From an uncultured Oscillospiraceae bacterium (GTDB lineage Bacteria > Bacillota > Clostridia > Oscillospirales > Oscillospiraceae): 64,000 bases of DNA. Positions within the stretch are counted from its first letter, which is position 1; every line of letters begins with the position of its first letter. The position numbers were made by a program, and so were the translations under genes. This document shows, piece by piece, positions 30,927 through 52,119 of the stretch. The notes under the pieces are model-generated. The model made no database searches. It was not told the origin of the DNA and was given only the letters and a program-made list of their open reading frames with translations. The stretch spans positions 1 to 64,000 of the forward strand of contig CANQMW010000014.1 of the NCBI GenBank assembly GCA_947625045.1, written 5' to 3'.

Positions 30927-31847
30927 GTGAGCGGTTTGTATAATCCCCAGCTGGAGACATTCGTCCGGGTGGCGGACGCGGGCAGCTTCAACAAGGCGGC
31001 GGACGACGCCTTCATCACGCCTACGGCGGTGATAAAGCAGATCAATCTTCTGGAATCGGAGCTGGACCTGAAGCTCTTTGTCCGCAGCCACCGGGGTCTC
31101 ACGCTTACCAAGGCGGGCGAATCCCTCTACCGGGACGCCAAGTACATGATGGACTACTCCCGCCGGGCCATTGCCCGCGCCCACGCCGCCATGCAGGAGG
31201 AGTACGGCGTGGTGCGCATCGGCACCTCGCCCATGACCCCGGCCCAGCTGCTCACCGACCTGTGGCCTCAGATCCACGAGCGATGCGGTGACGTGAGCTT
31301 TCAGCTGGTCCCCTTTGAGAACACCCCGGAGAACGCCCGGGAGATCCTGCGCAATCTGGGGGAGAACATCGACGTGGTGACGGGCATCTTCGACGAGACG
31401 TTGCTGGCCCTGCGCCAATGTGCGGGCTTTGAAATATCCCGCGAGCCCATCTGCTGCGCCGTGAGCATTTATCACCCCTTGGCGGCCAAGGAGGAGCTCA
31501 CGCCGGAGGACTTGGCCGGGGAGGAACTGCTGCTGATCCACCGGGGGTGGAGCAGGTATATGGACGAGCTGCGGGACGACCTTTCGCAGAACCACCCGGA
31601 CATAAAGATCGCGGATTTCGATTTCTATGATATGAGCATCTTCAATCGCTGCGAACAGAGCCGGAATGTGCTGACAGTCATCGGCAAGTGGTCCTGCGTC
31701 CATCCCATGCTGAAGGTGCTGCCGGTAGCGTGGGACCACGCCATCCCCTTTGGCATCCTTCACCCGCCCGAGCCGTCGCCCATGCTGGCCCGGTTCCTGG
31801 ACGCGGTGCGGGCTGTGGTGCAGGAAAAGCAGGAAAAAGAGTTATAA
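30927..31847 (+). CDS. LysR-family transcriptional regulator (LysR1)
   Basis: The 306-residue protein has the LysR winged helix at residues 5-65 (QLETFVRVADAGSFNKAADDAFITPTAVIKQINLLESELDLKLF, split by the usual turn) and a periplasmic-binding-like effector domain. It begins at GTG 30927 after AAAGAAAGGG. It is encoded directly upstream of the first of four promoters that share a LysR-like bipartite site. The GGTATA half-site dyad of that first promoter overlaps its own stop codon. It is the best candidate regulator of the redox island; the inducer is unknown. Confidence 0.88.
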   Translation: MSGLYNPQLETFVRVADAGSFNKAADDAFITPTAVIKQINLLESELDLKLFVRSHRGLTLTKAGESLYRDAKYMMDYSRRAIARAHAAMQEEYGVVRIGTSPMTPAQLLTDLWPQIHERCGDVSFQLVPFENTPENAREILRNLGENIDVVTGIFDETLLALRQCAGFEISREPICCAVSIYHPLAAKEELTPEDLAGEELLLIHRGWSRYMDELRDDLSQNHPDIKIADFDFYDMSIFNRCEQSRNVLTVIGKWSCVHPMLKVLPVAWDHAIPFGILHPPEPSPMLARFLDAVRAVVQEKQEKEL

Positions 31848-31909
31848 CCTTTGGGTATATACTTATGAACTGATCGGGACTTCTCAAGAGGTCCCGGTCT
31901 TTTTATAAT
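31847..31909 (+). promoter_or_regulatory. Shared island promoter A (LysR-type site)
   Basis: ACC-TTTG-GGTATA at 31847-31859 is followed by GACTTCT at 31878-31884 and TATAAT at 31904-31909. A 20-bp dyad (GGGACTTCT / AGAGGTCCC) lies just upstream of the -10. It serves the hydrolase at 31944 and the following flavodoxin genes. The same pieces with the same spacings occur at 39532, 49385 and 50353. Confidence 0.8.
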
Positions 31910-31943
31910 ATGTGCATGGGATATACGCAAACAGGAGGGCGCG

Positions 31944-32906
31944 ATGAGGAAAGTCGGTTTGGCAGCCGTGTTGCTTGCGTGTCTGCTGCTGTGCGCAGCG
32001 GCGGCGGACCGGGGAGGGGATGAGATGGACGGGCCTTATACCGTGAACACGAAAATATCCGATGTGATGAACGACCCCGTGTTCGGGTCATGGGGACGGC
32101 TGATCTTCCCGGCAGACGAGGGCTATTGGAGCGGCGAAACGCTGGGGGACCTGTGCCTGACCTGGTACAGCAACATCGACCCGGACAAGACCGTGGAGAT
32201 ATGCAGCTATCTCCATGACAAGGCCGCCGCAGGCGAGACCGTTTTCTATGACATCTACACCGACGAGGAGAAGGCGGCGGACCCGGCCAAGGAGGACACG
32301 GGGCTGTTCTTCTTCAAGGGCGAGCCGGGCGCGAAGTTCGCCGTGTGCAGCGCCGGAGGCGGGTTTGCCTATGTGGGGGCCATGCACGACAGCTTCCCCC
32401 ATGCTTTGGAGCTCGCCAAGATGGGCTACAACGCCTTCGCCCTCATCTACCGCCCCGGCTGGGACACCGCCTGCGAGGACCTGGCGCGGGCCATCACTTT
32501 CATCTTTGACCACGCAGGCGACCTGGAAGTGGACACGGACTGCTACTCTCTCTGGGGCGGCAGCGCGGGGGCGCGGATGGCGGCATATCTGGGCACCTAC
32601 GGACCGGCGTACTTCGGCGGGGACGACCTGCCCCGTCCGGGCGCGGTCATCATGCAGTACACCGGCCATGGCGAGTACAGCGAATCGGACCCGCCCACCT
32701 ACGCCTGCGTAGGCACCAACGACGGCATCGCCTCCTGGCGGACTATGCAGCGGCGGCTGGAGGCCATGAGCGCGCTGGGCATCCCCACGGAATTCCGCGT
32801 CTACGAGGGCCTCTCTCACGGCTTTGGCCTGGGCACCGGCACCGTGGCGGAGGGGTGGATCAACGACGCGGTAAGTTTTTGGAAGGAACAGATGGAAACC
32901 GGCTGA
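31944..32906 (+). CDS. Exported alpha/beta hydrolase (esterase-like)
   Basis: The 320-residue protein starts with a signal peptide (VGLAAVLLACLLLCAAAA). It carries an alpha/beta hydrolase domain with SAGGGFAYVG as the oxyanion region, the nucleophile elbow WGGSAGARM near residue 210, and a late His in YEGLSHGFGLG. The BD-FAE/esterase group is the closest type I recognise. GGAGGG lies before the ATG. It is first in an operon behind shared promoter A, directly before an exported flavodoxin-DUF362 protein, so it may act on an extracellular ester. Confidence 0.75.
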   Translation: MRKVGLAAVLLACLLLCAAAADRGGDEMDGPYTVNTKISDVMNDPVFGSWGRLIFPADEGYWSGETLGDLCLTWYSNIDPDKTVEICSYLHDKAAAGETVFYDIYTDEEKAADPAKEDTGLFFFKGEPGAKFAVCSAGGGFAYVGAMHDSFPHALELAKMGYNAFALIYRPGWDTACEDLARAITFIFDHAGDLEVDTDCYSLWGGSAGARMAAYLGTYGPAYFGGDDLPRPGAVIMQYTGHGEYSESDPPTYACVGTNDGIASWRTMQRRLEAMSALGIPTEFRVYEGLSHGFGLGTGTVAEGWINDAVSFWKEQMETG

Positions 32907-32925
32907 TATGCGAAAGGAGACCATG

Positions 32926-34482
32926 ATGAAGAAGTTGATTGCAATACTGCTGAGCCTCGCGCTTCTGCTGAGCCTGGCTGCCTGTTCTTCCGGCAGCGCA
33001 CAGGCCAGCGAGGCCCCGGCAGAACCGACCGCAGAGGCGGAGCCTGCTGCCGCGCCTGAAACGGCAGAAAACACCCAGACCGCAGGCGGCAAGACCCTGG
33101 TGGTCTACTTCTCCGCTACCAACAACACCGAGGCGGTGGCGAACACCATCGCCGCCGCGATGAACGCCGATGTCTTTGAAATCATCCCAGCTCAACCCTA
33201 CACCAGCGACGATCTGAACTGGCGGGACGGGGACAGCCGGGTGTCCCGCGAGCATGACGACGAGAGCCTGCGCACCGTGGAGCTGGAGAACACGGCGGTG
33301 GATGGATGGGGAGATTACAGCACCGTGTTTGTGGGCTACCCCATCTGGTGGGGCATCGCGGCCTGGCCGGTGAGCAGCTTCGTCGCCGCCAATGATTTCA
33401 CCGGCAAGACGGTGATCCCCTTCTGCACCTCCTCCAGCTCCGGCCTGGGCGACAGCGGCCAGCTTCTGGCCGAGGCAGCCGGCACGGGAACGTGGCTGGA
33501 GGGCCAGCGGTTCCGCTCCGGCGTCAGCGAGGCGGACGTGCAGGCGTGGCTGGACGGCCTGGAGCTCCCAGCCGCAGAGCCCGCCCCGGCCAACGAGACC
33601 GCCGAGGGCACCGGCGCATCGGTGGTATACTTCACCTCCGACATCAGCGCCGAGGGTATGATGCGGGCCTATGAAGCCCTGGGCGTGGAGCTGCAGGGCG
33701 ATAACATCGCGGTGAAGCTCTCCACCGGCGAGCCTCCCGCCAGCAACTACCTGCGCCCGGAGCTCATCAAAGACTTAGTGGAGGCGGTAAACGGCACCAT
33801 CGTGGAGTGCAACACCGCCTACGGCGGCTCCCGCTCCGAGACGGCCATGCACTACCAGGTGGCCGAGGACCACGGCTTCACGGAGCTGGGCAAGGGCTTC
33901 GTCATCATGGACGAGGACGGCTCCATGATCCTCCCGGTGGAGGGCGGCCAGCGGCTGACAGAGAACTATGTAGGCGCCCACTTCGGGGACTTTGACGGTT
34001 TCCTGGTCCTCAGCCACTTCAAGGGGCATATGATCGCCGGTTACGGCGGTGCGCTGAAAAATATCTCTATCGGCATTGGCTCCCAGGAGGGAAAGAACCT
34101 GATCCATACCGCCGGGCGCAGCCACACCAGCTGGTTTGGCGGGGAGCAGGACGCCTTTCTGGAGTCCATGGCCGACGCGGGCAAGTCCGTGGTGGACGCC
34201 CTGGACCACAACATCCTGTTCATCAACGTGATGAATCGCCTCTCCATAGACTGCGACTGCAACGGCAACCCCGCCGAGCCGGACATCCACGACATCGGCA
34301 TCCTTGCCTCCACCGACCCGGTGGCCCTTGACCAAGCCTGCATGGACCTGATCTACCAGGCGGAGGGCAATGAGAGCTTCGTCCGCCGCGTGGAGGGGCA
34401 GAACGGGCTCCATGTGCTGGAAGCCGCCGAGACCATCGGCCTGGGCAGCCGGACATACGAGCTGGTGGATATAGATGTTTGA
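32926..34482 (+). CDS. Exported lipoprotein: flavodoxin domain fused to DUF362
   Basis: The 518-residue protein has a lipoprotein signal (LLSLAAC, Cys about residue 22), a low-complexity Ala/Glu linker, and a flavodoxin domain (about 48-210). The FMN phosphate loop is YFSATNNT, followed by GYPIWWG and PFCTSSSSG. A second linker leads to a DUF362 domain (about 225-518) with VKLSTGEPP, ECNTAYGGSRSE, HFKGH and IDCDCNGNPAEPDIHDIGIL. Flavodoxins are normally cytoplasmic, so a lipid-anchored one outside the membrane is unusual. ATG 32926 is favoured by AAAGGAG 7 bases upstream; ATG 32923 is possible. The paralogue at 34581 shows the pair arose by duplication. Confidence 0.8.
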   Translation: MKKLIAILLSLALLLSLAACSSGSAQASEAPAEPTAEAEPAAAPETAENTQTAGGKTLVVYFSATNNTEAVANTIAAAMNADVFEIIPAQPYTSDDLNWRDGDSRVSREHDDESLRTVELENTAVDGWGDYSTVFVGYPIWWGIAAWPVSSFVAANDFTGKTVIPFCTSSSSGLGDSGQLLAEAAGTGTWLEGQRFRSGVSEADVQAWLDGLELPAAEPAPANETAEGTGASVVYFTSDISAEGMMRAYEALGVELQGDNIAVKLSTGEPPASNYLRPELIKDLVEAVNGTIVECNTAYGGSRSETAMHYQVAEDHGFTELGKGFVIMDEDGSMILPVEGGQRLTENYVGAHFGDFDGFLVLSHFKGHMIAGYGGALKNISIGIGSQEGKNLIHTAGRSHTSWFGGEQDAFLESMADAGKSVVDALDHNILFINVMNRLSIDCDCNGNPAEPDIHDIGILASTDPVALDQACMDLIYQAEGNESFVRRVEGQNGLHVLEAAETIGLGSRTYELVDIDV

Positions 34483-34531
34483 CATCCTCCGCCGGGAGCT
34501 GGTCTATATAAGTTATTATTTCATTGCATAA
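34475..34531 (+). pseudogene. 18-codon stub of a duplicated permease gene
   Basis: ATGTTTGA overlaps the stop of the preceding gene exactly as the intact permease gene at 36847 overlaps its own upstream gene. The stub reads MFDILRRELVYISYYFIA and stops; the intact permease starts MFDVIRRELVYITYYFMV. The rest of the copy has been deleted. It records a tandem duplication of a [flavodoxin-DUF362 + permease] unit. Confidence 0.8.
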
Positions 34532-34580
34532 AAGATATTTCCTGCTTTGACAATACCGACAAAAGAAAGGATGTAGGACC

Positions 34581-36854
34581 ATGAAAAAGCGCATATTGAG
34601 CGGCCTGCTGGCAGTGATAACGCTGCTGTCCCTTTGTGCCACGGCACTGACGGCGGAAGCGGCCCCCGCAGCCGCCGCCCCTATGGCGGAGGCGGAGGAC
34701 CATATCCTGGTCGCCTATTTCTCCGCTACCAACAACACCCGGCCCCTGGCAGAATACGCCGCGGAGGTACTGGGCGCGGACCTCTTTGAGATCGTGCCGG
34801 CCCAGCCCTATACCCCGGAGGACCTGGCCTACTATACCGGCGGCCGGGCCGACCAGGAGCACAGCGACCCCACCGCCCGTCCCGCCATCGCGGCCCGAGT
34901 GGCGAACATGGCGCAGTATGACGCCGTGCTCATAGGCTACCCCATCTGGTACGGCGAGGCACCCCGTATCATCAGCACCTTCCTGGAGAGCTACGACTTC
35001 TCCGGCAAGACCATCCTGCCCTTCTGCACGTCGGCGTCCAGCGACATCGGCACCAGCGACGACGAGCTGCACGCCCTGGCGCCGGGTGCCAACTGGCTGG
35101 ACGGGAGGCGTTTCCCCGCCGGGACGACCCGGGAGACCATCGCCGCGTGGCTGGATGCCAGCGGCATAACGGCGGCGGAGCCCGACACGACGCCTTCCAC
35201 GACGCCCGCGCCTGCGGACCCCACCCCCGTTCCCACAACGGAGCCCACGCCCGCGCCCGCGCCCATGAAGGACGGCTGGCAGTGGGACGGCGCCTGGCGC
35301 TACTACAGAAACGGCCGGATGGTCACCAATGACTGGCTCCTGGATGGCGGTGTGTGGTACTTCCTGGACCCAGACGGGAAGATGATGGAGAGCCTGAGCG
35401 AGATCGCCCTGGGCCGGGGCGACGACGGCTGGTACTATTTCAGCGAGAAACACGACGGCACCTACGGCCACGTGCTGAGCGGCTGGCAGTATATCAACTA
35501 TACGTGGTACTACTTCAACCCCAAGCACGACGGCACCTTTGGCCGCATGGTCACCAACGACTGGCTGCAGGACGGCGGCGTGTGGTACTTCCTGGACCCG
35601 GACGGGAAGATGATGGAGGGCCTGAGCGAGATCGCCCTGGGCCGGGGCGACGATGGCTGGTACTATTTCAGCGAGAAGCACGACGGCACCTACGGCCATG
35701 TAATGAGCGGCTGGCAGACCATCAACGGAAACACCTACTACTTCAACCCCAGGCACAACGGCACCTTCGGCCGGGCCTACGCAGACGGGACCTACACCAT
35801 CGATGGTGAGCAATATACCTTTGACGAGACCGGCAAGCTGGTGACCGATGACCCGAAGCCGACGCCGGAACCCACGCCGGAACCCACGCCGGAGCCGACG
35901 CCAGAGCCCACGCCGGAGTCCACGCCGGAGCCGACGCCAGAGCCCACACCGGAGCCCACACCGGATACCGGCGGGGGCACCACCGGGGGCTCCACGGTGT
36001 ACTTCACCTCCAGCATCACCCCGGAAGGGATGATGGCGGTGTATAGGGCCTTGGGCTGGACGCCCACGGGGAACGTGGCGGTAAAGCTCTCCACCGGCGA
36101 GCCTCCCGCCAGCAACTACCTGCGCCCGGAGCTGATCGCGGACCTGGTGCAGAGCGTGAACGGCACCATCGTGGAGTGCAACACCGCCTACGGCGGCAGC
36201 CGCTCCGAGACCGCCATGCACCGGCAGGTGGCGGAGGACCACGGCTTCACCGCCATCGCGAACGTGGACATTCTGGACGAGGAGGGCTCCATGGAGCTGC
36301 CCGTGCAGGGCGGCAATGTGCTGGCATCCAACCTGGTGGGCGGCCACTTTGGGAACTATGACAGCTACATCGTCCTCAGCCACTTCAAGGGCCACGCCAT
36401 GGCGGGCTTCGGCGGGGCCATCAAGAATATCTCCATCGGCCTGGGCTCCCAGGAGGGCAAGTGCCTTATCCATACCGGCGGCAGGAGCCACACCAGCCCC
36501 TGGGGCGGCGACCAGACCGCCTTCACCGAATCCATGGCCGACGCGGGCAAGTCCGTCAGCGACTACCTGGGCCATGGGGAGCGCATCGTGTATGTGAGCG
36601 TGCTGAACAACATCTCCATCGACTGCGACTGCGACGGTAACCCCGCCGAGCCGGACATCCACGACATCGGCATCCTGGCCTCCACCGACCCGGTGGCTAT
36701 CGACCAGGCGGCCATCGACCTGTGCTTTGCCGCAGAGGGCAGCGAGAGCCTGCAGGCCCGGGTGGAGCGGCAGAACGGCCTGCACACCCTGGAGGCGGCG
36801 GAGCAGATCGGCCTGGGCAGCCGGACCTATGAGCTGGTGGATATAGATGTTTGA
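34581..36854 (+). CDS. Exported flavodoxin - cell-wall-binding repeat - DUF362 fusion protein
   Basis: The 757-residue product begins with a Sec signal (cleavage near LTAEA-AP). A flavodoxin domain (about 40-195) has the loop YFSATNNTR and GYPIWYGEAPR. A PTP linker follows, then about six tryptophan/tyrosine-rich cell-wall-binding (CW/glucan-type) repeats (about 230-425), including two near-identical 76-residue blocks. A PTPEPTPEP linker (about 430-470) leads to a DUF362 domain (about 475-757) closely matching that of the upstream paralogue. This one has no lipobox and would be held on the wall by its repeats. RBS AAAGAAAGGA is upstream. The stop overlaps the permease start. Confidence 0.8.
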   Translation: MKKRILSGLLAVITLLSLCATALTAEAAPAAAAPMAEAEDHILVAYFSATNNTRPLAEYAAEVLGADLFEIVPAQPYTPEDLAYYTGGRADQEHSDPTARPAIAARVANMAQYDAVLIGYPIWYGEAPRIISTFLESYDFSGKTILPFCTSASSDIGTSDDELHALAPGANWLDGRRFPAGTTRETIAAWLDASGITAAEPDTTPSTTPAPADPTPVPTTEPTPAPAPMKDGWQWDGAWRYYRNGRMVTNDWLLDGGVWYFLDPDGKMMESLSEIALGRGDDGWYYFSEKHDGTYGHVLSGWQYINYTWYYFNPKHDGTFGRMVTNDWLQDGGVWYFLDPDGKMMEGLSEIALGRGDDGWYYFSEKHDGTYGHVMSGWQTINGNTYYFNPRHNGTFGRAYADGTYTIDGEQYTFDETGKLVTDDPKPTPEPTPEPTPEPTPEPTPESTPEPTPEPTPEPTPDTGGGTTGGSTVYFTSSITPEGMMAVYRALGWTPTGNVAVKLSTGEPPASNYLRPELIADLVQSVNGTIVECNTAYGGSRSETAMHRQVAEDHGFTAIANVDILDEEGSMELPVQGGNVLASNLVGGHFGNYDSYIVLSHFKGHAMAGFGGAIKNISIGLGSQEGKCLIHTGGRSHTSPWGGDQTAFTESMADAGKSVSDYLGHGERIVYVSVLNNISIDCDCDGNPAEPDIHDIGILASTDPVAIDQAAIDLCFAAEGSESLQARVERQNGLHTLEAAEQIGLGSRTYELVDIDV
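35319..35774 (+). repeat. 228-bp in-frame direct repeat encoding cell-wall-binding modules
   Basis: Two adjacent units (35319-35546 and 35547-35774) both encode MVTNDWL-DGGVWYFLDPDG, then GWYYFSEKHDGTYGHV and GWQ. The second unit diverges at its end. Copy number may vary between strains by slippage or recombination. Confidence 0.75.
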
Positions 36855-37752
36855 CGTTATCCGCAGGGAGCTGGTCTATATAACCTACTACTTTATGGTC
36901 CAGCTCCGGCAGATCGCCGGGTATTGGGTGCTGGGCATGGTGGTGGGCTCGCTGGTGAGCGTGTTCGCCAAGGACGCCATCCACAACGCCTTCGCCCGCA
37001 TCCGGGACAAGAAATGGGGGCTGTGGGGCGTGGTCCCGGCAAGCCTGCTGGGGGTGGCGTCGCCCCTGTGCATGTACGGCACCATCCCCATCGCCGCGTC
37101 CTTCTCCCGGGCCGGGATGCGCCACGACTGGCTGGCGGCGTTCATGATGTCCAGCGTGCTTTTGAACCCCCAACTCATCATGTATAGCACCGCCCTTGGC
37201 CCAACGGCGCTCATCATCCGCCTGGTGTCCTGCACGGTCTGCGGCGTCGCGGCGGGGCTGGTGGTCCACGGGTTTTATAGGGACCGGCCCTTTTTCAGCT
37301 TCGACGGCTTTGAGCCGGGGGCCAGCCACGACACGAATCCGAACCTCCTGTTGCGGTTCCTTTTCAACCTGGGCCGAAACATCCGGGCCACGGGGCTTTA
37401 CTTCCTGCTGGGGGTGCTGCTGTCGGCGCTCTTTCAGCGGTACGTCCCGGCGGACAAGTTCGCGGCGCTGTTCGGCGAGGCCAACGAGGGCTTCGGGGTG
37501 CTGATGGCGGCCACCATCGGGGTGCCGCTGTACGCCTGCGGCGGCGGGACCATCCCGCTGATCCGGGAGTGGCTGGCCATGGGCATGAGCATGGGCAGCG
37601 CGGCGGCCTTCATGCTCACCGGCCCGGCCACCAAGATCACCAACCTGGGTGCGCTGAAGATCGTGCTGGGTGCAAAACGCTTCGCCCTTTACATCGCCTT
37701 CGTGATGGCCTTTTCCCTGGTCACGGGACTTATCGTGAATCTGATTGTATGA
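36847..37752 (+). CDS. ArsP/YraQ-type permease
   Basis: The 301-residue membrane protein has about eight helices with two internally similar halves. The first half has ASPLCMYGTIPIAASF and VLLNPQLIMY; the second has GVPLYACGGGTIPLI and LTGPATKITNLG. This is the PF03773 permease pattern, whose members include organoarsenical and possibly other small-molecule exporters; two Cys sit in equivalent loops. It overlaps the upstream fusion gene by 8 bases (translational coupling), and a stub of a second copy lies after the paralogue. It probably works with the secreted flavodoxin-DUF362 proteins, but its substrate is unknown. Confidence 0.75.
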   Translation: MFDVIRRELVYITYYFMVQLRQIAGYWVLGMVVGSLVSVFAKDAIHNAFARIRDKKWGLWGVVPASLLGVASPLCMYGTIPIAASFSRAGMRHDWLAAFMMSSVLLNPQLIMYSTALGPTALIIRLVSCTVCGVAAGLVVHGFYRDRPFFSFDGFEPGASHDTNPNLLLRFLFNLGRNIRATGLYFLLGVLLSALFQRYVPADKFAALFGEANEGFGVLMAATIGVPLYACGGGTIPLIREWLAMGMSMGSAAAFMLTGPATKITNLGALKIVLGAKRFALYIAFVMAFSLVTGLIVNLIV

Positions 37753-37755
37753 ACC

Positions 37756-37785
37756 TGCCCCCTGGCGATTCTCCGCCAGGGGGCA
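37756..37785 (+). terminator. Hairpin terminator after the permease gene
   Basis: TGCCCCCTGGCG pairs perfectly with CGCCAGGGGGCA over a 6-nt loop; only a weak T-rich tail follows. Confidence 0.65.
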
Positions 37786-37789
37786 TATC

Positions 37790-37818
37790 TTGTGAAGTCC
37801 GGGCTGGTGTGGTATATT
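37790..37818 (+). promoter_or_regulatory. Promoter of LysR2
   Basis: TTGTGA (37790-37795) and TATATT (37813-37818) are 17 bases apart. The -10 lies in a small dyad GGTA-TATTCT-TACC that could be an autoregulatory site. Confidence 0.55.
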
Positions 37819-37860
37819 CTTACCAGAATGACAAATCAGGATTTGATGAAGTGAGAAGAA

Positions 37861-38769: not shown

Positions 38770-38857
38770 TTTCTGGCTATGAAAAATGATATGAAATAGG
38801 TGTTATCTATCCAGCTGCCCGTTCTGCTATGATACGCGCAGAGGACGGTGACAGCCA

Positions 38858-39442: not shown

Positions 39443-39494
39443 CTTCCCGTTTGTCGGGCTGAAAAACCAATAGTGGCAAACAAAATACAAATAA

Positions 39495-39533
39495 TTATAA
39501 CTGCGGCAGGGTATGACCCCGCCGCAGTTATAA
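39495..39533 (+). terminator. Terminator-like hairpin after the LysE gene
   Basis: TTATAACTGCGGC pairs with GCCGCAGTTATAA (13 bp) and is followed by CTTTTGG. Its right arm overlaps the first half-site of island promoter D. Confidence 0.65.
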
Positions 39534-39594
39534 CTTTTGGTGTGGACTGATGAACCAAAGGAGACTTCTCCCGCATGCAAGCAGGGGGTAGAAT
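39532..39594 (+). promoter_or_regulatory. Shared island promoter D
   Basis: AAC-TTTT-GGTGTG at 39532-39544, GACTTCT at 39563-39569 and TAGAAT at 39589-39594 follow the same spacings as promoters A-C. This is the most divergent copy. It precedes the long operon beginning with the phosphoesterase at 39625. Confidence 0.7.
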
Positions 39595-39624
39595 AAACTC
39601 AGAAATCATAGAAGGAGGACCATC

Positions 39625-40725: not shown

Positions 40726-40726
40726 A

Positions 40727-42318: not shown

Positions 42319-42331
42319 GGAGGATTTAACG

Positions 42332-42658
42332 ATGGCAAAGAAACAGACGGCGGGACATGACCGGCTGGGCGAGTTTGCGCCCCAGTTCGCCCACTACAAC
42401 GACGACGTGCTGTTCGGCGAGGTCTGGGCGCGGGAGGATGAGCTGTCCGCCCACGACAGGAGCATGATCACCATCGCGGCGCTGATGAGCGGCGGCAACT
42501 TTGAGCAGCTCCGCTCCCACATCGCCCTGGGGAAAGAACATGGCATCACCCAGGATGAGATACGCGAGATCCTCACCCACCTGGCGTTTTACTGCGGCTG
42601 GCCCAAGGCGTGGAGCGCCTTCAACATCGCCAAGGAAATTTACGGAATGGAGAGGTAA
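42332..42658 (+). CDS. Carboxymuconolactone decarboxylase-family protein
   Basis: The 108-residue, all-helical protein contains [37 protein letters not shown] split over the conserved CMD core, then [16 protein letters not shown]. The usual C-x-x-C of AhpD peroxidase relatives is absent; only one Cys is present. It may be a hydroxyacyl or lactone enzyme or a small redox partner. AAGGAGG precedes ATG 42332. It is nested between an AKR and a flavodoxin, a common arrangement in Clostridia. Confidence 0.85.
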
Positions 42659-42663
42659 ATATC

Positions 42664-43137
42664 ATGAGCAAGAAACTGGTAGCGTATTTTTCCGCCAGCG
42701 GCACGACGGCGAAGCTGGCCAAGGACCTGGCGGTCGCCGTGGACGCCGACCTCTATGAGATCAAGCCGGCTGTCCCCTATACCAAGGCGGACCTGAACTG
42801 GATGGACAGTAAGGCCCGCAGCACCGTGGAGATGAAGGACAAGTCCTCCCGCCCGGCCATCGCGGACCGGGACGCCCATGCGGAGGACTACGACGTGATC
42901 TTCGTGGGCTTCCCCATCTGGTGGTATGTGGCCCCCACCATCATCAACACGTTTCTGGAGAGCTACGACTTCTCCGGCAAAAAAGTGGTGCTGTTCGCTA
43001 CCTCCGGCAGCAGCGGCTTCGGCCAGACGGTGCAGGGCCTCACCGGCAGCGTGGACGCCTCCTGCCAGATCATCGAGGGCAAGGTGAACGCCTCCGCCGC
43101 GGAGATAGCTTCCTGGGCCCAGGCCATGGGGCTGTAA
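42664..43137 (+). CDS. Flavodoxin (cytoplasmic)
   Basis: The 157-residue protein begins [21 protein letters not shown], with the FMN phosphate loop SASGTT. It has [19 protein letters not shown] and [14 protein letters not shown], as in the Flavodoxin_4 group. It lacks a signal peptide, unlike the three exported flavodoxins in this island. It probably supplies electrons to the neighbouring enzymes. Its ATG (42664) lies 5 bases after the previous stop. Confidence 0.88.
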
Positions 43138-43151
43138 GGGAGGTTAGAATC

Positions 43152-43514
43152 ATGAAAGAGAAAGTTTTGAAGGCGTCCGAGCAGTTCTGGACCGCTATGG
43201 AGGCGGCGGACGAGGCCGGGATGCGGGCCGTGGCGGACCCTGCGTGCAACTTCGTCCACATCGGCGTCACCTGCAAGCTGGACCAGGAGATCAAGTTCTA
43301 TACCGACGGACTGTTCCAGCCCACAGAGATCAAATTCAACGGGAAAACGGCGGACATCTACGGCGACACCGCCGTGGTGCTCACCGACTGCAACTATGGC
43401 CTGCTGCTGGACGGCAAGCCCACCACCCATCACTTTGCCGTGACGGAGGTCTATGCCAGACGGGGCGAGGACTGGAAGCTGGTCACGTTCACCTTCACCG
43501 CGCTGGTCTACTGA
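43152..43514 (+). CDS. NTF2-like (DUF4440-type) protein
   Basis: The 120-residue protein has a cone-shaped NTF2 fold pattern: FWTAMEAADEAGMRAVADPACNFVHIGVT, then IYGDTAVVLTDCNYGLLLDG and VTEVYARRGEDWKLVTFTFTAL. Such proteins are small hydrolases, isomerases or binding proteins. GGGAGG lies 9 bases before the ATG. It is part of the promoter D operon; its role is not known. Confidence 0.8.
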   Translation: MKEKVLKASEQFWTAMEAADEAGMRAVADPACNFVHIGVTCKLDQEIKFYTDGLFQPTEIKFNGKTADIYGDTAVVLTDCNYGLLLDGKPTTHHFAVTEVYARRGEDWKLVTFTFTALVY

Positions 43515-43523
43515 GGCGGCACG

Positions 43524-44567
43524 ATGAAATGGATCACGGGACTGCTGGCGGCGCTGGCCGTCATGCTGCTGGGCGGGTGCGCCCAGGCGGCGGAGGAAGG
43601 AGAGACGGATATGTCTGCCACCCATGAATCGGAGGTACGGGAGGGCGTGCCGGAGCCCAGCTATTATGACGAGGCTCTGGGCGCGGATTACGACACCGGC
43701 ACAGGCTGGTCCTTCGAGATGATGAACAAAAAGCCCCCGCTGCCCGCCGGGAACGACACGGTGCTGAACACCCCGGCGGACCCGTCCGGAGTGCAGGTGC
43801 TCTATCTCTGGGAGGAGGGCAAGGCCCCGGCCCGCACGTCGTTCACCCCGAATATGACCGGCTACTATGACGAGTGGGACTTCCGGCCCTATGTGACGGC
43901 GCTGCCCATCCCGGAGGGCATGGAGCCCAAGGGCGCGGTGGTGCTTCTGGCGGGCGGAGCCTATCAGTTCCGGGGCGACTACACCGACACCCTTCCCACG
44001 GCGCTGCACCTGCGGGCGCTGGGATTTTACACCTTCATCGTGGACTACCGGCTGCGGCCCTATGACCAGGAGGAGGGTGCGCTGGACGTGGCCCGCGCGG
44101 TGCGGTTCATCCGCAAAAACGCGGACACATACGGCATCGACCCGGACGCCATCGCCGTCATGGGCTACTCTGCCGGGGCCATCCAGGCGGGCGAGTTTTT
44201 CATGCACTACGACGAGGACGTGACCGGTGACGCGCTGGATGCGGACTATGAGCCGGATGAACTGGACGCCATCCCCGCCCACGCCTCCGCCTGCGGGATG
44301 ATCTACGGGTTTTATGGGCGGCTGAGCGTGGGGAACATGGACCCGGCGTGGCTGGCGGAGGGCAATTTGCCGCCCACATTCTACTGCTACGGCACCGAGG
44401 ACCCCTTTTACCGGCAGTTCCAGCAGCAGCATGACGTGATCGTGGGCATGGGCATCCCCACCAAGCGGATCGTGCTCCAGGACTGGCCCCACGGCTTCGG
44501 CGGTGACGGCGGCTGGGTAGAAGATTACGCCCAGTGGCTCACGCGGGTGTTCAGCGGGACATTTTGA
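43524..44567 (+). CDS. Exported alpha/beta hydrolase lipoprotein
   Basis: The 347-residue protein has a lipoprotein signal ending in MLLGGC (Cys about residue 18). The hydrolase domain has VVLLAGGAYQFRGD (oxyanion region), the nucleophile elbow VMGYSAGAIQ, and a late LQDWPHGFGG histidine. It resembles acetyl-xylan or carboxyl esterases. It is one of several exported hydrolases in the island (31944, 52120, 52940), pointing to ester substrates outside the cell. The start lies 9 bases after the previous stop with only a weak GGCGG site. Confidence 0.78.
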   Translation: MKWITGLLAALAVMLLGGCAQAAEEGETDMSATHESEVREGVPEPSYYDEALGADYDTGTGWSFEMMNKKPPLPAGNDTVLNTPADPSGVQVLYLWEEGKAPARTSFTPNMTGYYDEWDFRPYVTALPIPEGMEPKGAVVLLAGGAYQFRGDYTDTLPTALHLRALGFYTFIVDYRLRPYDQEEGALDVARAVRFIRKNADTYGIDPDAIAVMGYSAGAIQAGEFFMHYDEDVTGDALDADYEPDELDAIPAHASACGMIYGFYGRLSVGNMDPAWLAEGNLPPTFYCYGTEDPFYRQFQQQHDVIVGMGIPTKRIVLQDWPHGFGGDGGWVEDYAQWLTRVFSGTF

Positions 44568-44584
44568 GGATGGGAGAGATCGAA

Positions 44585-45574
44585 ATGGAAAAGAGACGGC
44601 TTGGAAACAGCGAACTTGTGGTGAATCCCGTGGGGCTGGGCTGCATGGGCTTCAGTCACGCCTCCGGCGACCCTATGGAAAAGACCGCCGCGGTCCGGAC
44701 GCTGCGAGAGGCATTTGACATCGGCTATGACTTTTACGATACGGCGGAGGCTTACACGGGCGTCTACCCGGACGGCTCCATCTCCTACAACGAGGAGCTG
44801 GTAGGCGAGGCCATCCACGGCATCCGGGACAAGGTGGTGCTGGTGACGAAGATGGGCGTCAGCCATAATCCAGACCGCTCCCTGCGGCTGGACAGCAGCC
44901 CGGCGACCATTCGGAAAAGCGTGGAGAGAAGTCTGAAAAAGCTGAACACTGACCACATCGACCTATACTTCCAGCACCGCATCGACCCCAAAATGGAGCC
45001 GGAGATGGTGGCAGAGACCATGGGCGAACTGATCCGGGAGGGCAAGATCCGCGCCTGGGGCATCTCCGAGACCACAGAGGAGTATCTGCGCCGGGCCCAT
45101 GCGGTGTGCCCGGTGACGGCCATTGAAAACCGCTACTCCATGATGGCCCGGTGGCATGAAAACCTCTTTTCCGTGTGCGAGGAACTGAATGTAGCGTATA
45201 TCGCTTTTTCTCCTATGGCCAACGGCTTTCTCACGGGCAAATACACGCCCGACACGAAATTCGAGGGTGCCCAGGATTACCGCCCCGGTATGCCCCAATA
45301 CACCAAAGAGGGCTATGCGAAGGCGAAGGGCCTGCTGGAACTGCTCACCGACCTGGCGGCAAAGAAAAACGCCACCATGGGCCAGCTCTCTCTGGCCTGG
45401 ATGATCAACAAAAAGCCCTACATCGTTCCCATTCCCGGTTCCAGAAAACCGGACCGGCTGCGGGAGAACTTTGCGTCGGCCAATATCATTCTGACGAAGG
45501 ACGAGATCGCCGCCATTGACGCCGCCCTGGACACCATGAGCTTTGACGTGTTCGGCGGCCACAGCGGAAAGTAA
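44585..45574 (+). CDS. Aldo-keto reductase (YajO/AKR13-type)
   Basis: The 329-residue protein starts MEKRRLGNSELVVNPVGLGCMGFS, typical of the group acting on larger aldehydes. The tetrad residues are in YDFYDTAEAYTG, LVTKMG and YFQHRID. ENRYSMMAR and IPIPGSRKPDRLREN bind the cofactor; the latter favours NADPH. ATG 44585 has GGGAGAG upstream; ATG 44570 is possible. It lies between two hydrolase genes. Confidence 0.9.
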   Translation: MEKRRLGNSELVVNPVGLGCMGFSHASGDPMEKTAAVRTLREAFDIGYDFYDTAEAYTGVYPDGSISYNEELVGEAIHGIRDKVVLVTKMGVSHNPDRSLRLDSSPATIRKSVERSLKKLNTDHIDLYFQHRIDPKMEPEMVAETMGELIREGKIRAWGISETTEEYLRRAHAVCPVTAIENRYSMMARWHENLFSVCEELNVAYIAFSPMANGFLTGKYTPDTKFEGAQDYRPGMPQYTKEGYAKAKGLLELLTDLAAKKNATMGQLSLAWMINKKPYIVPIPGSRKPDRLRENFASANIILTKDEIAAIDAALDTMSFDVFGGHSGK

Positions 45575-45609
45575 AGAAAAAATCAATGATGAAACAAGGA
45601 GGAAATAAC

Positions 45610-46482
45610 ATGGACGCGCAAAAGGTCGTATTTATGAACAAAGCTCTGGATCTTCGCCTGGCCGGGATCCTCTATATTCCGGAGGCGTTTGATCTGAGCA
45701 AGAACTATCCCGCTGTCGTGGTGACCGGCCCGATGCTCTCCGTAAAGGAGCAGGCGCAGTCGGTCTATGCCAGGAAGCTGACGGAGGCAGGTTATGTGAC
45801 GCTGGTATTTGACGGCGCTTATTTTGGCGAGAGCGAGGGTACGCCGCGGGGACAGGAGCTTCCCGACGTGAAGGAAAGCGACATTGAGGGCGCGGTGGAC
45901 TATCTTTGCAGTCTGCCCTATGTGGATAAGGAAAGGATCGGCGGTCTCGGCATCTGCGGCTCAGGGTCGTATATGTCTGTTGCCGGCGTAAAGGAGCCCA
46001 GACTGAAAGCCATCACCGCTATCGTTCCCGCTATTGCGGACATTTCCACTTCTCCGATGATGGGCTTTTTCAAGCCGGAGGCGGAGGTCCTTGCGGCGAA
46101 AGAAGCCTATGACAAAGGCGAGGGCGAGCTGATGTACCTGAATTTCATGCCCAGGGCTTTTGAAGAGGGCGCGGCCTATTACTATTCCTTCCGCGGCACA
46201 CATCCCCGTTGGTCCAATCAGGTCGTTGCCTGGAGCCAGCTGGAACTGGTGAAATATAATGTGCCGAACATTATGAAGGACATGACAAAGCCGTATTGCG
46301 TGATCTCCGGGGAGAACGCATGGTCAAAGCCGTCCTCTGAGGATGTGTTCAACGCTGTACCGCACAGCAACAAGCAGATGCATGTGATCCCGGAGGCGGG
46401 TCACTTCGATATGTACGATCTGGCGCCTTTTGTTTCCGAGGCGTTTGACTATATCCTGCCGTTCTTTGATAAGTACCTGTAA
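45610..46482 (+). CDS. Dienelactone-hydrolase-like alpha/beta hydrolase
   Basis: The 290-residue cytoplasmic protein has the nucleophile elbow GGLGICGSGSY, in which a Cys replaces the usual Ser, as in dienelactone hydrolase. The acid/base end is VIPEAGHFDMYDL. VYARKLTEAGYVTLVFDGAYFGESEG matches the YcjY/DlhH group. Its codons look less G/C-rich than those of neighbours, which may indicate separate acquisition. AAGGAGG precedes ATG 45610. Confidence 0.8.
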   Translation: MDAQKVVFMNKALDLRLAGILYIPEAFDLSKNYPAVVVTGPMLSVKEQAQSVYARKLTEAGYVTLVFDGAYFGESEGTPRGQELPDVKESDIEGAVDYLCSLPYVDKERIGGLGICGSGSYMSVAGVKEPRLKAITAIVPAIADISTSPMMGFFKPEAEVLAAKEAYDKGEGELMYLNFMPRAFEEGAAYYYSFRGTHPRWSNQVVAWSQLELVKYNVPNIMKDMTKPYCVISGENAWSKPSSEDVFNAVPHSNKQMHVIPEAGHFDMYDLAPFVSEAFDYILPFFDKYL

Positions 46483-46531
46483 GGACAAGTCCTGGCCCCG
46501 GAGTACGGAGCGTATTAAGGAGGAGAAAACC

Positions 46532-47692
46532 ATGAACGATTTTGTGTATTCCTATCCCACCAAGGTCTACTTTGGCGTCGGTGCGGCGGCGAAGCACTTG
46601 CCCGGCGAGCTTGCGAAGGTGGGCAGGACCGTCCTGCTGGCCTACGGCGGCGGGTCTGTGAAGCGAAACGGCGTCTATGACGAGATCCACGGCATCCTGG
46701 AGTCCGCCGGCAAGACCGTGGTTGACTTTCCCGGCGTCATGCCCAACCCCACCTACGCCAAGGTCCAGGAGGGCGCGGCCCTCTGCCGGGAGCGGGGCGT
46801 GGACTTCATCCTGGCGGTGGGCGGTGGGTCCGTCTTTGACTGCTGCAAGGTCATCGCCGCCCAGGCCATGACCGACAAGGACATCTGGGAGCTGGAGTAT
46901 ACCGACCACGGCACACCCACCGCCTTTCTGCCCATGGGCGCGGTGGTGACGGCCTCCGGCACCGGCGCGGAGATGAACAACGGCGCGGTCATCACCAACG
47001 AGGAAAAGAAGATCAAGGGCGCGATCTGGGGCGCGTCGGCCTCCTTTGCCATCCTGGACCCCACATACACCCTGAGCCTGCCCATGAAGCAGGTGATCTC
47101 CGGGGCCTTCGACACCCTGAGCCACTGCATGGAGACCTATTTCGGCATGCCCGGCGCGGACAACCTCTCCGACAGGATGAACGAGGCCGTCATGGTCAGC
47201 GTCATCGAAAACATCCGGGTACTCTTGAAGGACGAACTAAACCTGACCGCCCGGAGCGAGCTGGAGTGGGCCTCGGCCATGGCGGAGAACGGCATTTTGA
47301 AGATCGGCAAGGTCACGGACTTCCAGGGCCACCAGATCGAGCACCAGCTTGGGGCCTACACCGACTGCAACCACGGATGCGGCCTGGCCGTGATCCATCC
47401 GGCTTTGTACCGGCATATGTATAAAGAAGCTCCGGCCCGCTTTGCCCGGTTCGCCCAGGTGGTATGGGGCGTGGACCCGACCGGCAGGACGGAGAAGGAG
47501 ACGGCTCTCGCGGGCATTGACGCGCTGGCGGCGTTCATCAAGGAGATCGGCCTGCCCACCACCTTCACGGAGATGGGCATCACGGACGAGAGCGTCCTCC
47601 GGGCCACGGCGGACACCTGCAACCTCACGGCGGGCTGCTGCAAGAAGTTCGACCGGGAGGAGATATTCCAGCTTTTGAAGGAGTGTCTGTAA
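46532..47692 (+). CDS. Iron-containing alcohol dehydrogenase (butanol dehydrogenase type)
   Basis: The 386-residue protein has the group III dehydrogenase pattern: VLLAYGGGSVKRNGVYD, then FILAVGGGSVFDCCKVIAA for NAD(P)H, and the metal-binding histidines in HQIEHQLGAYTDCNHGCGLAVIHP (split here by the usual spacing). It reduces aldehydes such as butyraldehyde with NAD(P)H. AAGGAGGAG precedes ATG 46532. It is followed by an AKR with a ferredoxin-like tail. Confidence 0.92.
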   Translation: MNDFVYSYPTKVYFGVGAAAKHLPGELAKVGRTVLLAYGGGSVKRNGVYDEIHGILESAGKTVVDFPGVMPNPTYAKVQEGAALCRERGVDFILAVGGGSVFDCCKVIAAQAMTDKDIWELEYTDHGTPTAFLPMGAVVTASGTGAEMNNGAVITNEEKKIKGAIWGASASFAILDPTYTLSLPMKQVISGAFDTLSHCMETYFGMPGADNLSDRMNEAVMVSVIENIRVLLKDELNLTARSELEWASAMAENGILKIGKVTDFQGHQIEHQLGAYTDCNHGCGLAVIHPALYRHMYKEAPARFARFAQVVWGVDPTGRTEKETALAGIDALAAFIKEIGLPTTFTEMGITDESVLRATADTCNLTAGCCKKFDREEIFQLLKECL

Positions 47693-47715
47693 AAATATAA
47701 AAGGAGGATCAGCGG

Positions 47716-48834
47716 ATGAACCGCTTTTACCCTGAGATCAAAAAGAACTTCGGCTTTGGCTGTATGCGCCTGCCCCTGAAGGACGGCGTTGTGGACACAG
47801 GGCTGTTCAGCCAGATGGTGGACGCCTTTCTGGATGCGGGCTTCAACTATTTTGACACAGCTCATGGCTATGTGAATCAACTGAGTGAGCCTGCGCTAAA
47901 AACCTGCCTTACCAGCCGCTATCCACGGGACCGGTACATACTGACCGACAAGCTGACCAACTTCTTCTTCAAAAAGCAGGAGGACATCCGGCCCCTGTTT
48001 GAAAGCCAGCTGGCCGCCTGCGGGGTGGACTATTTCGACTTCTACCTGATGCACGCCCAGGGGGCGGCGAATTTCGCCTTTTTCAAGAGCTGCCGGGCCT
48101 ATGAGACAGCGCTGGAGCTGAAGGAGGAGGGAAAATTCCGGCATTTCGGCATCTCCTTCCACGACACGGCGGACGTACTGGAACAGATATTGACCGAGTA
48201 CCCCCAGATCGAGGTGGTGCAGATGCAGCTGAACTACGCCGACTGGGAGGACCCGGCGGTGCAGAGCCGCAAGTGCTATGAGGTCTGCGAAAAGTACGGA
48301 AAGCCCGTGATCGTCATGGAGCCGGTGAAGGGCGGCAACCTGGCCCAGCTTCCCGACGACGCCAGAGCCGTGCTGGATGCGCTTCATGGCGGCAGCCCGG
48401 CCAGCTACGCCATCCGATTCGCCGCCAGCCAGCCAAATGTGATGATGGTGCTCTCCGGCATGGGCGATATGGACATGGTTCGGGACAATATCGCCGCCAT
48501 GAAGGACTTTAAGCCCCTGGACGAGACGGAGCTGGCCGCAGTGATGCAGGTGCGGGACATCTTCCGCAGCAAGCACCTGATCGAGTGCACCGCCTGCCGG
48601 TACTGCACCGCGGACTGCCCCAGGCATATCTCCATCCCGGACCTGTTCGCCTGCCTGAACGCCAAGCGGGTGTTCCACAACTGGAACACGGATTATTACT
48701 ACAACAACGTCTATACCACCGCCAACGGCAAAGCCTCTGCGTGCATCAAGTGCGGCAGGTGCGAGAAAGCCTGCCCCCAGCATTTGCCCATCCGGGAACT
48801 GCTGCAGGACGTGGCGGCGGAGTTTGAAAAGTGA
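47716..48834 (+). CDS. Aldo-keto reductase with C-terminal [4Fe-4S] domain
   Basis: The 372-residue protein has an AKR barrel (about 1-270; FNYFDTAHGYVN, LTDKL, LMHAQG, then VMEPVKGG and VLSGMGDMD). An iron-sulfur tail follows with CTACRYCTADCPRH and CIKCGRCEKACPQH, enough for two [4Fe-4S] clusters. This suggests electron supply from ferredoxin or flavodoxin instead of, or in addition to, NADPH. A flavodoxin gene follows 8 bases downstream. AAAGGAGG precedes the ATG. Confidence 0.92.
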   Translation: MNRFYPEIKKNFGFGCMRLPLKDGVVDTGLFSQMVDAFLDAGFNYFDTAHGYVNQLSEPALKTCLTSRYPRDRYILTDKLTNFFFKKQEDIRPLFESQLAACGVDYFDFYLMHAQGAANFAFFKSCRAYETALELKEEGKFRHFGISFHDTADVLEQILTEYPQIEVVQMQLNYADWEDPAVQSRKCYEVCEKYGKPVIVMEPVKGGNLAQLPDDARAVLDALHGGSPASYAIRFAASQPNVMMVLSGMGDMDMVRDNIAAMKDFKPLDETELAAVMQVRDIFRSKHLIECTACRYCTADCPRHISIPDLFACLNAKRVFHNWNTDYYYNNVYTTANGKASACIKCGRCEKACPQHLPIRELLQDVAAEFEK

Positions 48835-48842
48835 GGGAGAGT

Positions 48843-49361
48843 ATGGGTAAGAATTTGATCATCTATTATTCCCGCAAGGGGGAGAACTACTTCAACGGGT
48901 CCATCCGCTCCATCCCCAAGGGCAACACGGAGATCGTGGCCGAATACATCCAGAAGGCTGTGGGCGGCGATCTCTTTGAGATCGAGACCGTGCGGGAATA
49001 TAGCGCCGACTATATGACCTGCACCCGCGAGGCCCAGGACGAACTGCGCGCCCACGCCAGACCGGAGCTGAAACGGTATCTGGACAGCCTGGACGGATAT
49101 GACAACGTGTTCGTCTGCGGCCCCTGCTGGTGGGGCACCTTCCCCATGGCGGTGTTCACCCAGCTTGAGCGGCTGGATTGGGCGGGAAAGCGCGTTATGG
49201 CCGTTATGACCCATGAGGGCAGCGGGCTGGGAAGCTGTGAGCGGGACCTGAAAAAGACCTGTGCCGGGGCTACCTTCGGCAAGGGTCTGGCCGTTCACGG
49301 TGCGGACGCCGCCCAGTCTGAGACTACTGTGTCCGGCTGGGCAAAGAAAGCGTCGATTTGA
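48843..49361 (+). CDS. Flavodoxin (cytoplasmic)
   Basis: The 172-residue protein starts GKNLIIYYSRKGENYFNGS, an extended variant of the FMN loop region, with CGPCWWGTFPMAVFTQLE and THEGSGLGSCERDLK. No signal peptide is present. It lies directly after the Fe-S aldo-keto reductase, its likely partner. ATG 48843 follows GAGGGAG. It ends the promoter D operon. Confidence 0.88.
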   Translation: MGKNLIIYYSRKGENYFNGSIRSIPKGNTEIVAEYIQKAVGGDLFEIETVREYSADYMTCTREAQDELRAHARPELKRYLDSLDGYDNVFVCGPCWWGTFPMAVFTQLERLDWAGKRVMAVMTHEGSGLGSCERDLKKTCAGATFGKGLAVHGADAAQSETTVSGWAKKASI

Positions 49362-49384
49362 AGCCGCGCATGTGACGGGTCCGC

Positions 49385-49447
49385 ACCCGGAGGTATAAAC
49401 CTTATAACATTTCGAGACTTCTGTTTTCCGCTCTGGGCCGGTACAAT
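49385..49447 (+). promoter_or_regulatory. Shared island promoter C
   Basis: ACC-CGGA-GGTATA at 49385-49397, GACTTCT at 49416-49422 and TACAAT at 49442-49447 keep the exact spacings of promoters A, B and D. It serves the aldo-keto reductase at 49483. Confidence 0.8.
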
Positions 49448-49482
49448 GATACCATCAAATAACGACAAAGGAGCGCGGAACA

Positions 49483-50337
49483 ATGAGCGAGAAGAAAACT
49501 ATTACCCTGAACAACGGCGTGGAGATGCCCCTGGTGGGTATCGGCACCTTTATGATGAGCCCGGACGACGCAGAGGCGGCTGCCCTGAGCGCTCTGCAGA
49601 GCGGCTATCAGCTCATCGACACGGCCAACGCCTACATGAACGAGAAGGCCGTGGGCCGGGCCATGAAACGCTCCGGCCTGCCCCGGAAGGACATCTTCCT
49701 GGAGACCAAGCTCTGGCCCGCCTTCTATGAGCAGGCCGACGCGGTGGAAAAGACCCTGGCCCGGCTGGACACAGACTACATCGACCTTCTGCTGATACAC
49801 CAGCCCGCCGGTAACTATGTGGCCGGCTACCGGCTCATGGAGAAGGCATACAAGGAGGGCAAGGTCCGAGCCATTGGCCTTTCCAACTTCACCGTGGAGC
49901 AGATCAAGGAGATCCTGGCGGTGTGCGAGGTCAAGCCCGCCATCCTCCAGACCGAGGTCCACCCCTACTCTCAGGAGAAGGAGCTGAAAGCGTTTCTGGC
50001 CAAGGAGGGCATCGTCATCCAGGCGTGGTATCCCCTGGGCCACGGGGACAAGGCGCTGCAGGCCGAGCCGGTGTTCACGGACCTGGCCCAGAAGTGCGGA
50101 AAGTCCACCGCCCAGATCATCCTGCGCTGGCACGTCCAGTCCGGGAACATCGTCATCCCCGGCTCCCGGAACCCGGACCACATCCGGGCCAATGCGGACC
50201 TGTTCGACTTCGCCCTGACGGACGGGGAGATGGCCGCCATCGAGCTGGTGAACAAGGACAAGCGGTATTACCACAGCACCCCGGAGATGCTGGCGGGCTA
50301 CGCCTCCATGGTCCCGCCCGTGGACGAACAGAAATAA
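49483..50337 (+). CDS. Aldo-keto reductase (2,5-diketogluconate reductase type)
   Basis: The 284-residue TIM-barrel enzyme has the tetrad in YQLIDTANAYMNEKAVG, LETKLWP and LLIHQPAGNY, and the cofactor segment IPGSRNPDHIRAN. It is similar in type to the enzyme at 41476 but monocistronic, behind promoter C. AAAGGAG lies before the ATG. It ends just before promoter B of the cupin operon. Confidence 0.9.
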   Translation: MSEKKTITLNNGVEMPLVGIGTFMMSPDDAEAAALSALQSGYQLIDTANAYMNEKAVGRAMKRSGLPRKDIFLETKLWPAFYEQADAVEKTLARLDTDYIDLLLIHQPAGNYVAGYRLMEKAYKEGKVRAIGLSNFTVEQIKEILAVCEVKPAILQTEVHPYSQEKELKAFLAKEGIVIQAWYPLGHGDKALQAEPVFTDLAQKCGKSTAQIILRWHVQSGNIVIPGSRNPDHIRANADLFDFALTDGEMAAIELVNKDKRYYHSTPEMLAGYASMVPPVDEQK

Positions 50338-50352
50338 GAGCGCAGAGTATAA

Positions 50353-50415
50353 ACCCAAAGGTATAAACCCACTAACAGATCGAGACTTCTGATGAGGTCT
50401 CGATCATTTTATAAT
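50353..50415 (+). promoter_or_regulatory. Shared island promoter B
   Basis: ACC-CAAA-GGTATA at 50353-50365, GACTTCT at 50384-50390 and TATAAT at 50410-50415. A 20-bp palindrome (GAGACTTC ... GAGGTCTC) lies between. It drives the cupin-flavodoxin-hydrolase operon. Confidence 0.82.
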
Positions 50416-52117: not shown

Positions 52118-52119
52118 AG

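Follow-up and report, generated by a model that had tools for sequence, protein, structure and literature searches.

We analyzed a window of 64,000 nucleotides (the whole stretch of DNA considered here) on contig 14 (CANQMW010000014.1) of the 2.93 Mb genome of an uncultured Oscillospiraceae bacterium (GCA_947625045.1). The window holds an island of reductase, flavodoxin and hydrolase genes together with lysR1, which encodes a LysR-type regulator. Four sites in this island are very probably operator-promoters of LysR1, and behind lysR1 the proximal block of the site would also be the 5' arm of the intrinsic terminator of that gene. The site, its spacing, its co-occurrence with LysR1, the hairpin and the covariation of its stem were found by computation, as detailed below. 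The orthologous loci that carry names are from uncultured Oscillospiraceae of 'Lapin' samples.

The first-pass annotation of the window had described four promoters sharing a bipartite signal with identical spacing. A pattern search of the window found GACTTCT-N19-TANAAT with zero mismatches at 31878, 39563, 49416 and 50384, and the coordinates and the spacing proved exact at all four. Copy 2 does deviate in its upstream half as had been described, since it reads AAC-N4-GGT instead of ACC-N4-GGT, and LysR1 does lie directly upstream of copy 1; its stop codon even falls within the left arm of the site. GACTTCT occurs 14 times on the two strands of the window; TANAAT follows 19 bases later at only four of these, the very four at which GGTNT stands at -24. 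With up to two mismatches allowed, GACTTCT-N19-TANAAT occurs six times in the window, against 1.03 times on average in 100 shuffles (standard deviation 1.00, maximum 4). The exact pattern GRGACTTCT-N19-TANAAT is expected about 0.009 times in the genome from base composition, and it is present six times, i.e., four times in the window and twice on contig 1, in a collapsed second island. At two mismatches the same pattern is far less selective, with 19 matches in the genome against 11 for the pattern read backwards. ACC-N4-GGTATA alone, with up to two mismatches allowed, matched 133 times; shuffles gave 99.85 matches on average (standard deviation 10.2, maximum 126). By itself it is thus enriched yet mostly background and a poor discriminator, and the signal is carried by the combination. 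A sigma-70 scanner read copy 1 as TTCTCA-17-TATAAT. Hence, it is the TTCT of GACTTCT that resembles a -35, at the canonical distance from the -10, which agrees with the earlier placement of a presumed activation site near -35. On reading, copies 2 to 4 have the same register.

To follow the site in other genomes, we used R1, a sequence-only profile made from a gap-free alignment of 26 sites of this and other genera, with the consensus tACC-N4-GGT-N4-ACtg-N3-AAC-N3-TCGRGACTTCT-N19-TATAAT. In all aligned sites the conserved blocks begin 31, 24, 17 and 10 bases before GACTTCT, in other words as a 7-base repeat. The profile replaced a loose pattern that was noisy at one mismatch: in 400 genomes of the family, it matched 39 places in 26 genomes, against 7 places when read backwards (counted from the table), and only 13 of these 26 genomes have LysR1. 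At zero mismatches, every matching genome has it. R1 matched 42 of the 400 genomes at E<=0.01, in a search run under stricter filters. The search for LysR1 scored at most five candidates per genome, and may thus have missed orthologues; it found relatives at E<=1e-50 in 48 genomes, comprising orthologues (at least 53% identity) in 27 and a class of 34-46% identity in the rest. Among the 27 genomes with a LysR1 orthologue, 26 have an R1 match at E<=0.01 (Fisher p ~1e-28, with genomes treated as independent, though they are related). Once the 12 genomes that seeded the profile are removed, the match is found in 15 of 16 LysR1 genomes, and in 13 of 14 when two further genomes of the same genus are removed as well. 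The sole LysR1 genome without a match (G269) has, on reading, a diverged site after LysR1 that scores 16.6 bits. Genomes carrying only the paralogues of 34-46% identity have an R1 match at E<=1e-4 in 1 of 21 cases. The check proposed in the first-pass annotation, whether matches in this and related genomes track LysR1 orthologues, thus gives a positive answer, with the exceptions named here and below.

The association extends beyond the family. In other genera and families, too, the site lies 3' of LysR1 and ahead of island-type genes. Among 245 genomes of the order, R1 matched 17 at E<=0.001, and 15 of these belong to nine other families. In the 20 regions retrieved, 10 of these 15 genomes encode a LysR1 of 59-69% identity. 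A whole-genome search added an eleventh (G458), where LysR1 is on contig 12 and the unlinked sites are on contigs 18 and 1; the same search found LysR1 in none of 23 site-free genomes outside the family. The genes after the outside-family sites match the hydrolases, Fe-ADH, aldo-keto reductases and flavodoxins of the window. The earlier idea of a local LysR1 regulon of about 20 genes is thus well supported by co-occurrence as regards the regulon, which would comprise some 22 genes here, but the regulon is more than local, since it reaches across the order. Within the genus (35 genomes), R1 matches were found in 11 genomes at E<=1e-4 and 13 at E<=0.01, and LysR1 in 9, of which 8 have a match at E<=1e-4.

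The two sites on contig 1 are copies of sites 1 and 2 that remain in the collapsed second island. The copy of site 1 follows a transporter gene, that of site 2 precedes a truncated phosphoesterase gene, and a second LysR1 with 97% identity lies near them (C1:116487-117389). The region (L020, 6488-12000) holds, besides the two sites and the second LysR1, the 3' end of the ArsP gene, and is almost devoid of target genes. Contig 8 has a partial R1 match at 96366-96410 (L160), a decayed piece resembling copy 4 that follows the apparent end of a 4Fe-4S gene. Its hairpin is mostly kept, its upstream part is shortened and its -10 is lost.

The regulator has an N-terminal HTH_1 domain and a LysR_substrate domain, both scoring above the Pfam cut-off, with no NCBIfam equivalog at cut-off among the matches listed. 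Its nearest solved relatives are general LysR-type proteins, with low scores (best 9.6e-11). Cys165, Cys177 and Cys242 are shared by all 20 orthologues compared, which suggests a possible redox or metal sensor and offers a lead. LysR-type promoters are described, in the available part of PMC4834489, as having a T-N11-A motif near -65 and a secondary site next to the -35; divergent regulator and target genes are called most common there, and secondary-site sequences non-conserved. The system studied here resembles LysR-type activator promoters, as far as the available parts of PMC4834489 and PMC11739112 describe them, in its HTH_1 and LysR_substrate regulator and in a bipartite site before a weak -35, with a T-N11-A and a block beside the -35: the TTCT of GACTTCT starts a -35-like hexamer 17 bp from the -10. 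It differs from that partial description in three respects. The lysR1 gene is mostly codirectional with its target and upstream of it, instead of divergent, as with the copy-1 operon (a divergent example is found in L208). Conservation is highest in the proximal block, at 1.34 bits per column, against 0.89 for the upstream part and 0.35 for the spacer (86 distinct sites; values partly circular, as most profile-building sites are included). Finally, the T-N11-A spacing, which fits T(-22)/A(-10) in 94% of the 86 sites, is centered about 54 bases before the predicted start instead of 65. The ACC-N4-GGTATA dyad had been taken for the LysR recognition site at about -65. Its position stands (the center of ACC-N4-GGT is at about -64.5), but the T-N11-A spacing fits the T(-22)/A(-10) pair rather than that dyad. 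A MerR-type promoter, with a MerR-type regulator, a 19-bp spacer and a dyad centered between -35 and -10, was considered and rejected: by reading, the dyad has its center some 18 bases ahead of the -10, it is missing from many sites, and the spacing from TTCTCA is 17.

The first-pass annotation had no mention of the hairpin. In copies 1 and 4, a perfect 12-bp hairpin, whose 5' arm contains GACTTC, is followed by a T-run that leads into the -10. The stem of copy 1 has 12 pairs, of which 7 are GC, and ends in TTTTT after lysR1, while copies 2 and 3 lack the hairpin (RNA fold z of -1.56 and 0.59). We counted stem pairs in 87 sites from 59 sources, leaving aside L079, L160, L175 and L228-L235; as the set includes 25 of the 26 profile-building sites, its per-column information is partly circular. 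At least 9 of the 12 pairs are formed in 24 of 30 LysR1-adjacent sites, compared with 18 of the 57 others. For a T-run of at least five, the counts are 19 of 30 and 9 of 57. Some of the 57 do follow a LysR1, either overlooked when picking open reading frames (ORFs; L163) or broken or displaced (L020, L197). In the alignment of the 30 LysR1-adjacent sites (A3, 29 distinct), 85.6% of the cells pair, and 8 of the 12 pairs show changes on both sides, which is reached by 2 of 500 shuffles. The covariation score is 0.242, against 0.140 in the shuffles (reached by 0 of 500), and sliding the stem by one base gives at most 0.133. In the 86 distinct sites, the 5' arm has 1.38 and the 3' arm 0.36 bits per column, as expected if the 5' arm alone is also read as DNA. 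In 13 of the 30 sites, the upstream part contains the lysR1 stop codon, 28-36 bases ahead of GACTTCT. The activation site apparently doubles as the lysR1 terminator. Some second sites (L086 3147 and 5285, L087 6352, L233 5853) have longer dyads, made of AACCAATCGGGACTTC and its complement, and no T-run.

Of 32 LysR1-adjacent sites, 23 have the embedded hairpin without a separate terminator, 4 have the reverse, 5 have neither according to our script, and none has both. Among the five, one folds a separate hairpin with a T-run when inspected by eye (G381), and two have a stem that contains a mismatch (L085, L194). The last two (G581, G545) lack a hairpin right after lysR1, and there the next site, past a short ORF, has the hairpin and the T-run.

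DNA uptake sequences of Haemophilus and Neisseria form terminators, and promoters overlapping terminators are a general phenomenon. The present arrangement is like the latter in that the stop signal of one unit shares bases with the promoter of the next. What sets it apart from uptake-sequence terminators is the nature of the signal, presumably an activator site, and a T-run that continues into the -10 of the operon that follows. With terminators built from another DNA signal it has in common, going by the available part of PMC1852404, that a sequence selected for other reasons supplies an arm of the intrinsic-terminator stem. Titles and abstract beginnings in the open-licence PubMed Central literature gave no recognizable example of an activator site, of LysR type or other, that overlaps or acts as a terminator, and no account of this regulon.

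Binding, activation, transcription starts, termination and the inducer are what we infer from these sequences, as follows. A tetramer of LysR1 would bind both the upstream part (ACC-N4-GGT...AC, including the T-N11-A from T(-22) to A(-10)) and the proximal block AACnnnTCGRGACTTCT. From there it would activate a promoter whose TTCT (TTCTNN) serves as a weak -35, 17 bp from the -10, and the activated set would be the reductases, flavodoxins and hydrolases of the island. Behind lysR1, the proximal block would form the 5' arm of the terminator with a complementary 3' arm, and the T-run would run into the -10 of the next operon. Since lysR1 is mostly upstream of and codirectional with its target, the place at which a terminator of lysR1 is needed would be taken by the operator of the operon, and its 5' arm would have been followed by the 3' arm. 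As the activation site and the terminator would be the same DNA, LysR1 may also control the end of its own transcript, with the tetramer bound at the hairpin blocking or favoring read-through from lysR1, an addition that we regard as unlikely.

Several observations weigh against this reading. Among the 42 R1-matching genomes of the family, 16 have no LysR1 orthologue in the search described above, and 8 of these match at E<=1e-4. Two of the eight carry LysR1 fragments beside the site (G157, G298), one has genes for an aldo-keto reductase, a CMD protein, a flavodoxin and an Fe-ADH after it (G383), three have a gene resembling peptidase S9 there (G146, G237, G324), and one has a LysR of 39% identity (G256). 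In the locus of the last (G034), no LysR1 fragment and no island-type gene was recognized. Four of the 15 outside-family genomes (G601, G608, G446, G586) have sites and no LysR1 in the whole-genome search. Within the genus, three genomes have sites without LysR1 (G644, G646, G647), and the contig of G644 ends where LysR1 is expected; G627 has a LysR1 of 96% identity and yet a single weak R1 match, on a different contig. In the window, copies 2 and 3 score lower against R1 than copies 1 and 4 (35.3 and 37.5 bits versus 59.1 and 58.2, all four being in the model). As for the terminator, two of the 23 embedded hairpins behind LysR1 have a long stem and a poor T-run (L080, L150), and second sites in L086, L087 and L200 have a long dyad and no good T-run.

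It could be that a different regulator reads the site and that LysR1 is merely a neighbor inherited with the island. In the genus, LysR1, the sites and close target genes do tend to share genomes, and the island seems largely gained and lost as a unit, so that linkage accounts for part of the co-occurrence; the genomes with sites and without LysR1 point the same way. We nevertheless find this explanation quite improbable, because between families gene order and target genes vary while LysR1 recurs, because the sites and LysR1 of G458 are on separate contigs, and because the architecture is that of LysR-type promoters, as the available part of PMC4834489 gives it. The other regulator of the island, LysR2 (37861), was rejected for this role: no close relative of it accompanies the sites of other genera, where its best matches in the annotated loci are either short or share 27-41% identity. 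A common origin without common function, by recent duplication of one intergenic stretch, would fit the duplicated pieces of the island in this genome (sites 1 and 2 and the 97% identical LysR1 on contig 1, the copy-4-like piece on contig 8). It is extremely improbable, since conservation already contradicts it: nine other families have the same pattern of columns. Moreover, pairwise identity among the four window sites is 44-72% inside the site, 21-30% upstream (-150 to -37) and 22-43% downstream (+32 to +100). The flanks are therefore unrelated, which rules out a single freshly copied intergenic block.

The hairpin might instead be a symmetric operator, in which an inverted second proximal half-site serves the other dimer of the tetramer and there is no terminator. 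This would suit the long dyads without a good T-run (L086 3147, L087 6352, L200 7264, L080 2857) and the loop, which has the same 4-base length in almost every row of A3. We consider it rather unlikely: many sites keep the first arm without the second, as the bits per column indicate, hairpin and T-run are concentrated behind lysR1, the hairpin and a separate terminator never occur together in the 32 LysR1-adjacent sites, and in G581 and G545 hairpin and T-run are at the site past the short ORF. RNA-type pairing, including a U-A/U-G wobble pair, is also kept, which speaks against this alternative.

The coordinates of all features are given in the table. Near copy 2, the 3' arm of a 20-bp hairpin (39493-39535), which scores as a terminator on the minus strand, is shared with the left end of the site. 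The single protein encoded at 34581-36854 combines a flavodoxin domain with choline-binding repeats and DUF362, and seems to have a signal peptide; the preceding gene has a lipoprotein-like start, a flavodoxin domain and DUF362. Further downstream, 55567-57144 encodes an odd fusion of ParB_N and ParB-HTH with in-frame serine-recombinase parts and DUF4368.

Table. Features of the four sites and their neighboring genes in the window.
Feature	Position	Strand	Basis
LysR1, LysR-type regulator gene	30927..31847	+	Pfam HTH_1 2.3e-19, LysR_substrate 1.4e-14; sequence
lysR1 stop codon TAA, within copy 1 left arm	31845-31847	+	sequence
Copy 1 ACC-N4-GGT dyad	31847..31856	+	sequence, pattern search, alignment
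Copy 1 block AAC-N4-CGGGACTTCT, presumed activation site and -35-like TTCT	31868..31884	+	pattern search, sigma-70 scan, alignment
Copy 1 12-bp hairpin then TTTTT, presumed lysR1 terminator	31872..31899	+	RNA fold z -5.06; covariation in relatives
Copy 1 -10 TATAAT	31904..31909	+	pattern search, sigma-70 scan
4 genes after copy 1: BD-FAE-type hydrolase, flavodoxin-DUF362, flavodoxin-choline-binding-DUF362, ArsP-type permease	31944..37752	+	Pfam; operon extent inferred
Copy 2 AAC-N4-GGT	39532..39541	+	sequence, alignment
Copy 2 block AAC...GAGACTTCT, without embedded hairpin	39553..39569	+	pattern search, stem count
Copy 2 -10 TAGAAT	39589..39594	+	pattern search
12 genes after copy 2: phosphoesterase, RibD_C, three aldo-keto reductases, CMD, flavodoxins, SnoaL-like, hydrolases, Fe-ADH	39625..49361	+	Pfam; operon extent inferred
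Copy 3 ACC-N4-GGT	49385..49394	+	sequence, pattern search, alignment
Copy 3 block AAC...CGAGACTTCT, without embedded hairpin	49406..49422	+	pattern search, stem count
Copy 3 -10 TACAAT	49442..49447	+	pattern search
Aldo-keto reductase AKR4 after copy 3	49483..50337	+	Pfam 6.9e-49
Copy 4 ACC-N4-GGT	50353..50362	+	sequence, pattern search, alignment
Copy 4 block AAC...CGAGACTTCT	50374..50390	+	pattern search, alignment
Copy 4 12-bp hairpin then ATTTT, 41 bases past AKR4 stop	50378..50405	+	RNA fold z -4.79
Copy 4 -10 TATAAT	50410..50415	+	pattern search
5 genes after copy 4: cupin protein, flavodoxin, two hydrolases, DUF4405	50432..54745	+	Pfam; operon extent inferred

With LysR1 as its probable regulator, a large uncharacterized redox and hydrolase island of gut Oscillospirales-type bacteria gains, besides a named regulator, an operator that can be searched for and a prediction of its gene set, and hence a route to its inducer. 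The proximal site of an activator, usually called poorly conserved, is here the best conserved part and apparently reused as a terminator arm. As the 5' arm would be fixed by DNA recognition and only the 3' arm would be free to follow, these loci may offer a clean test bed for one sequence with two functions. If LysR1 does control the end of its own transcript, a single 90-bp module, conserved across an order of gut bacteria, would couple the level of the regulator, its termination and the activation of the next operon.

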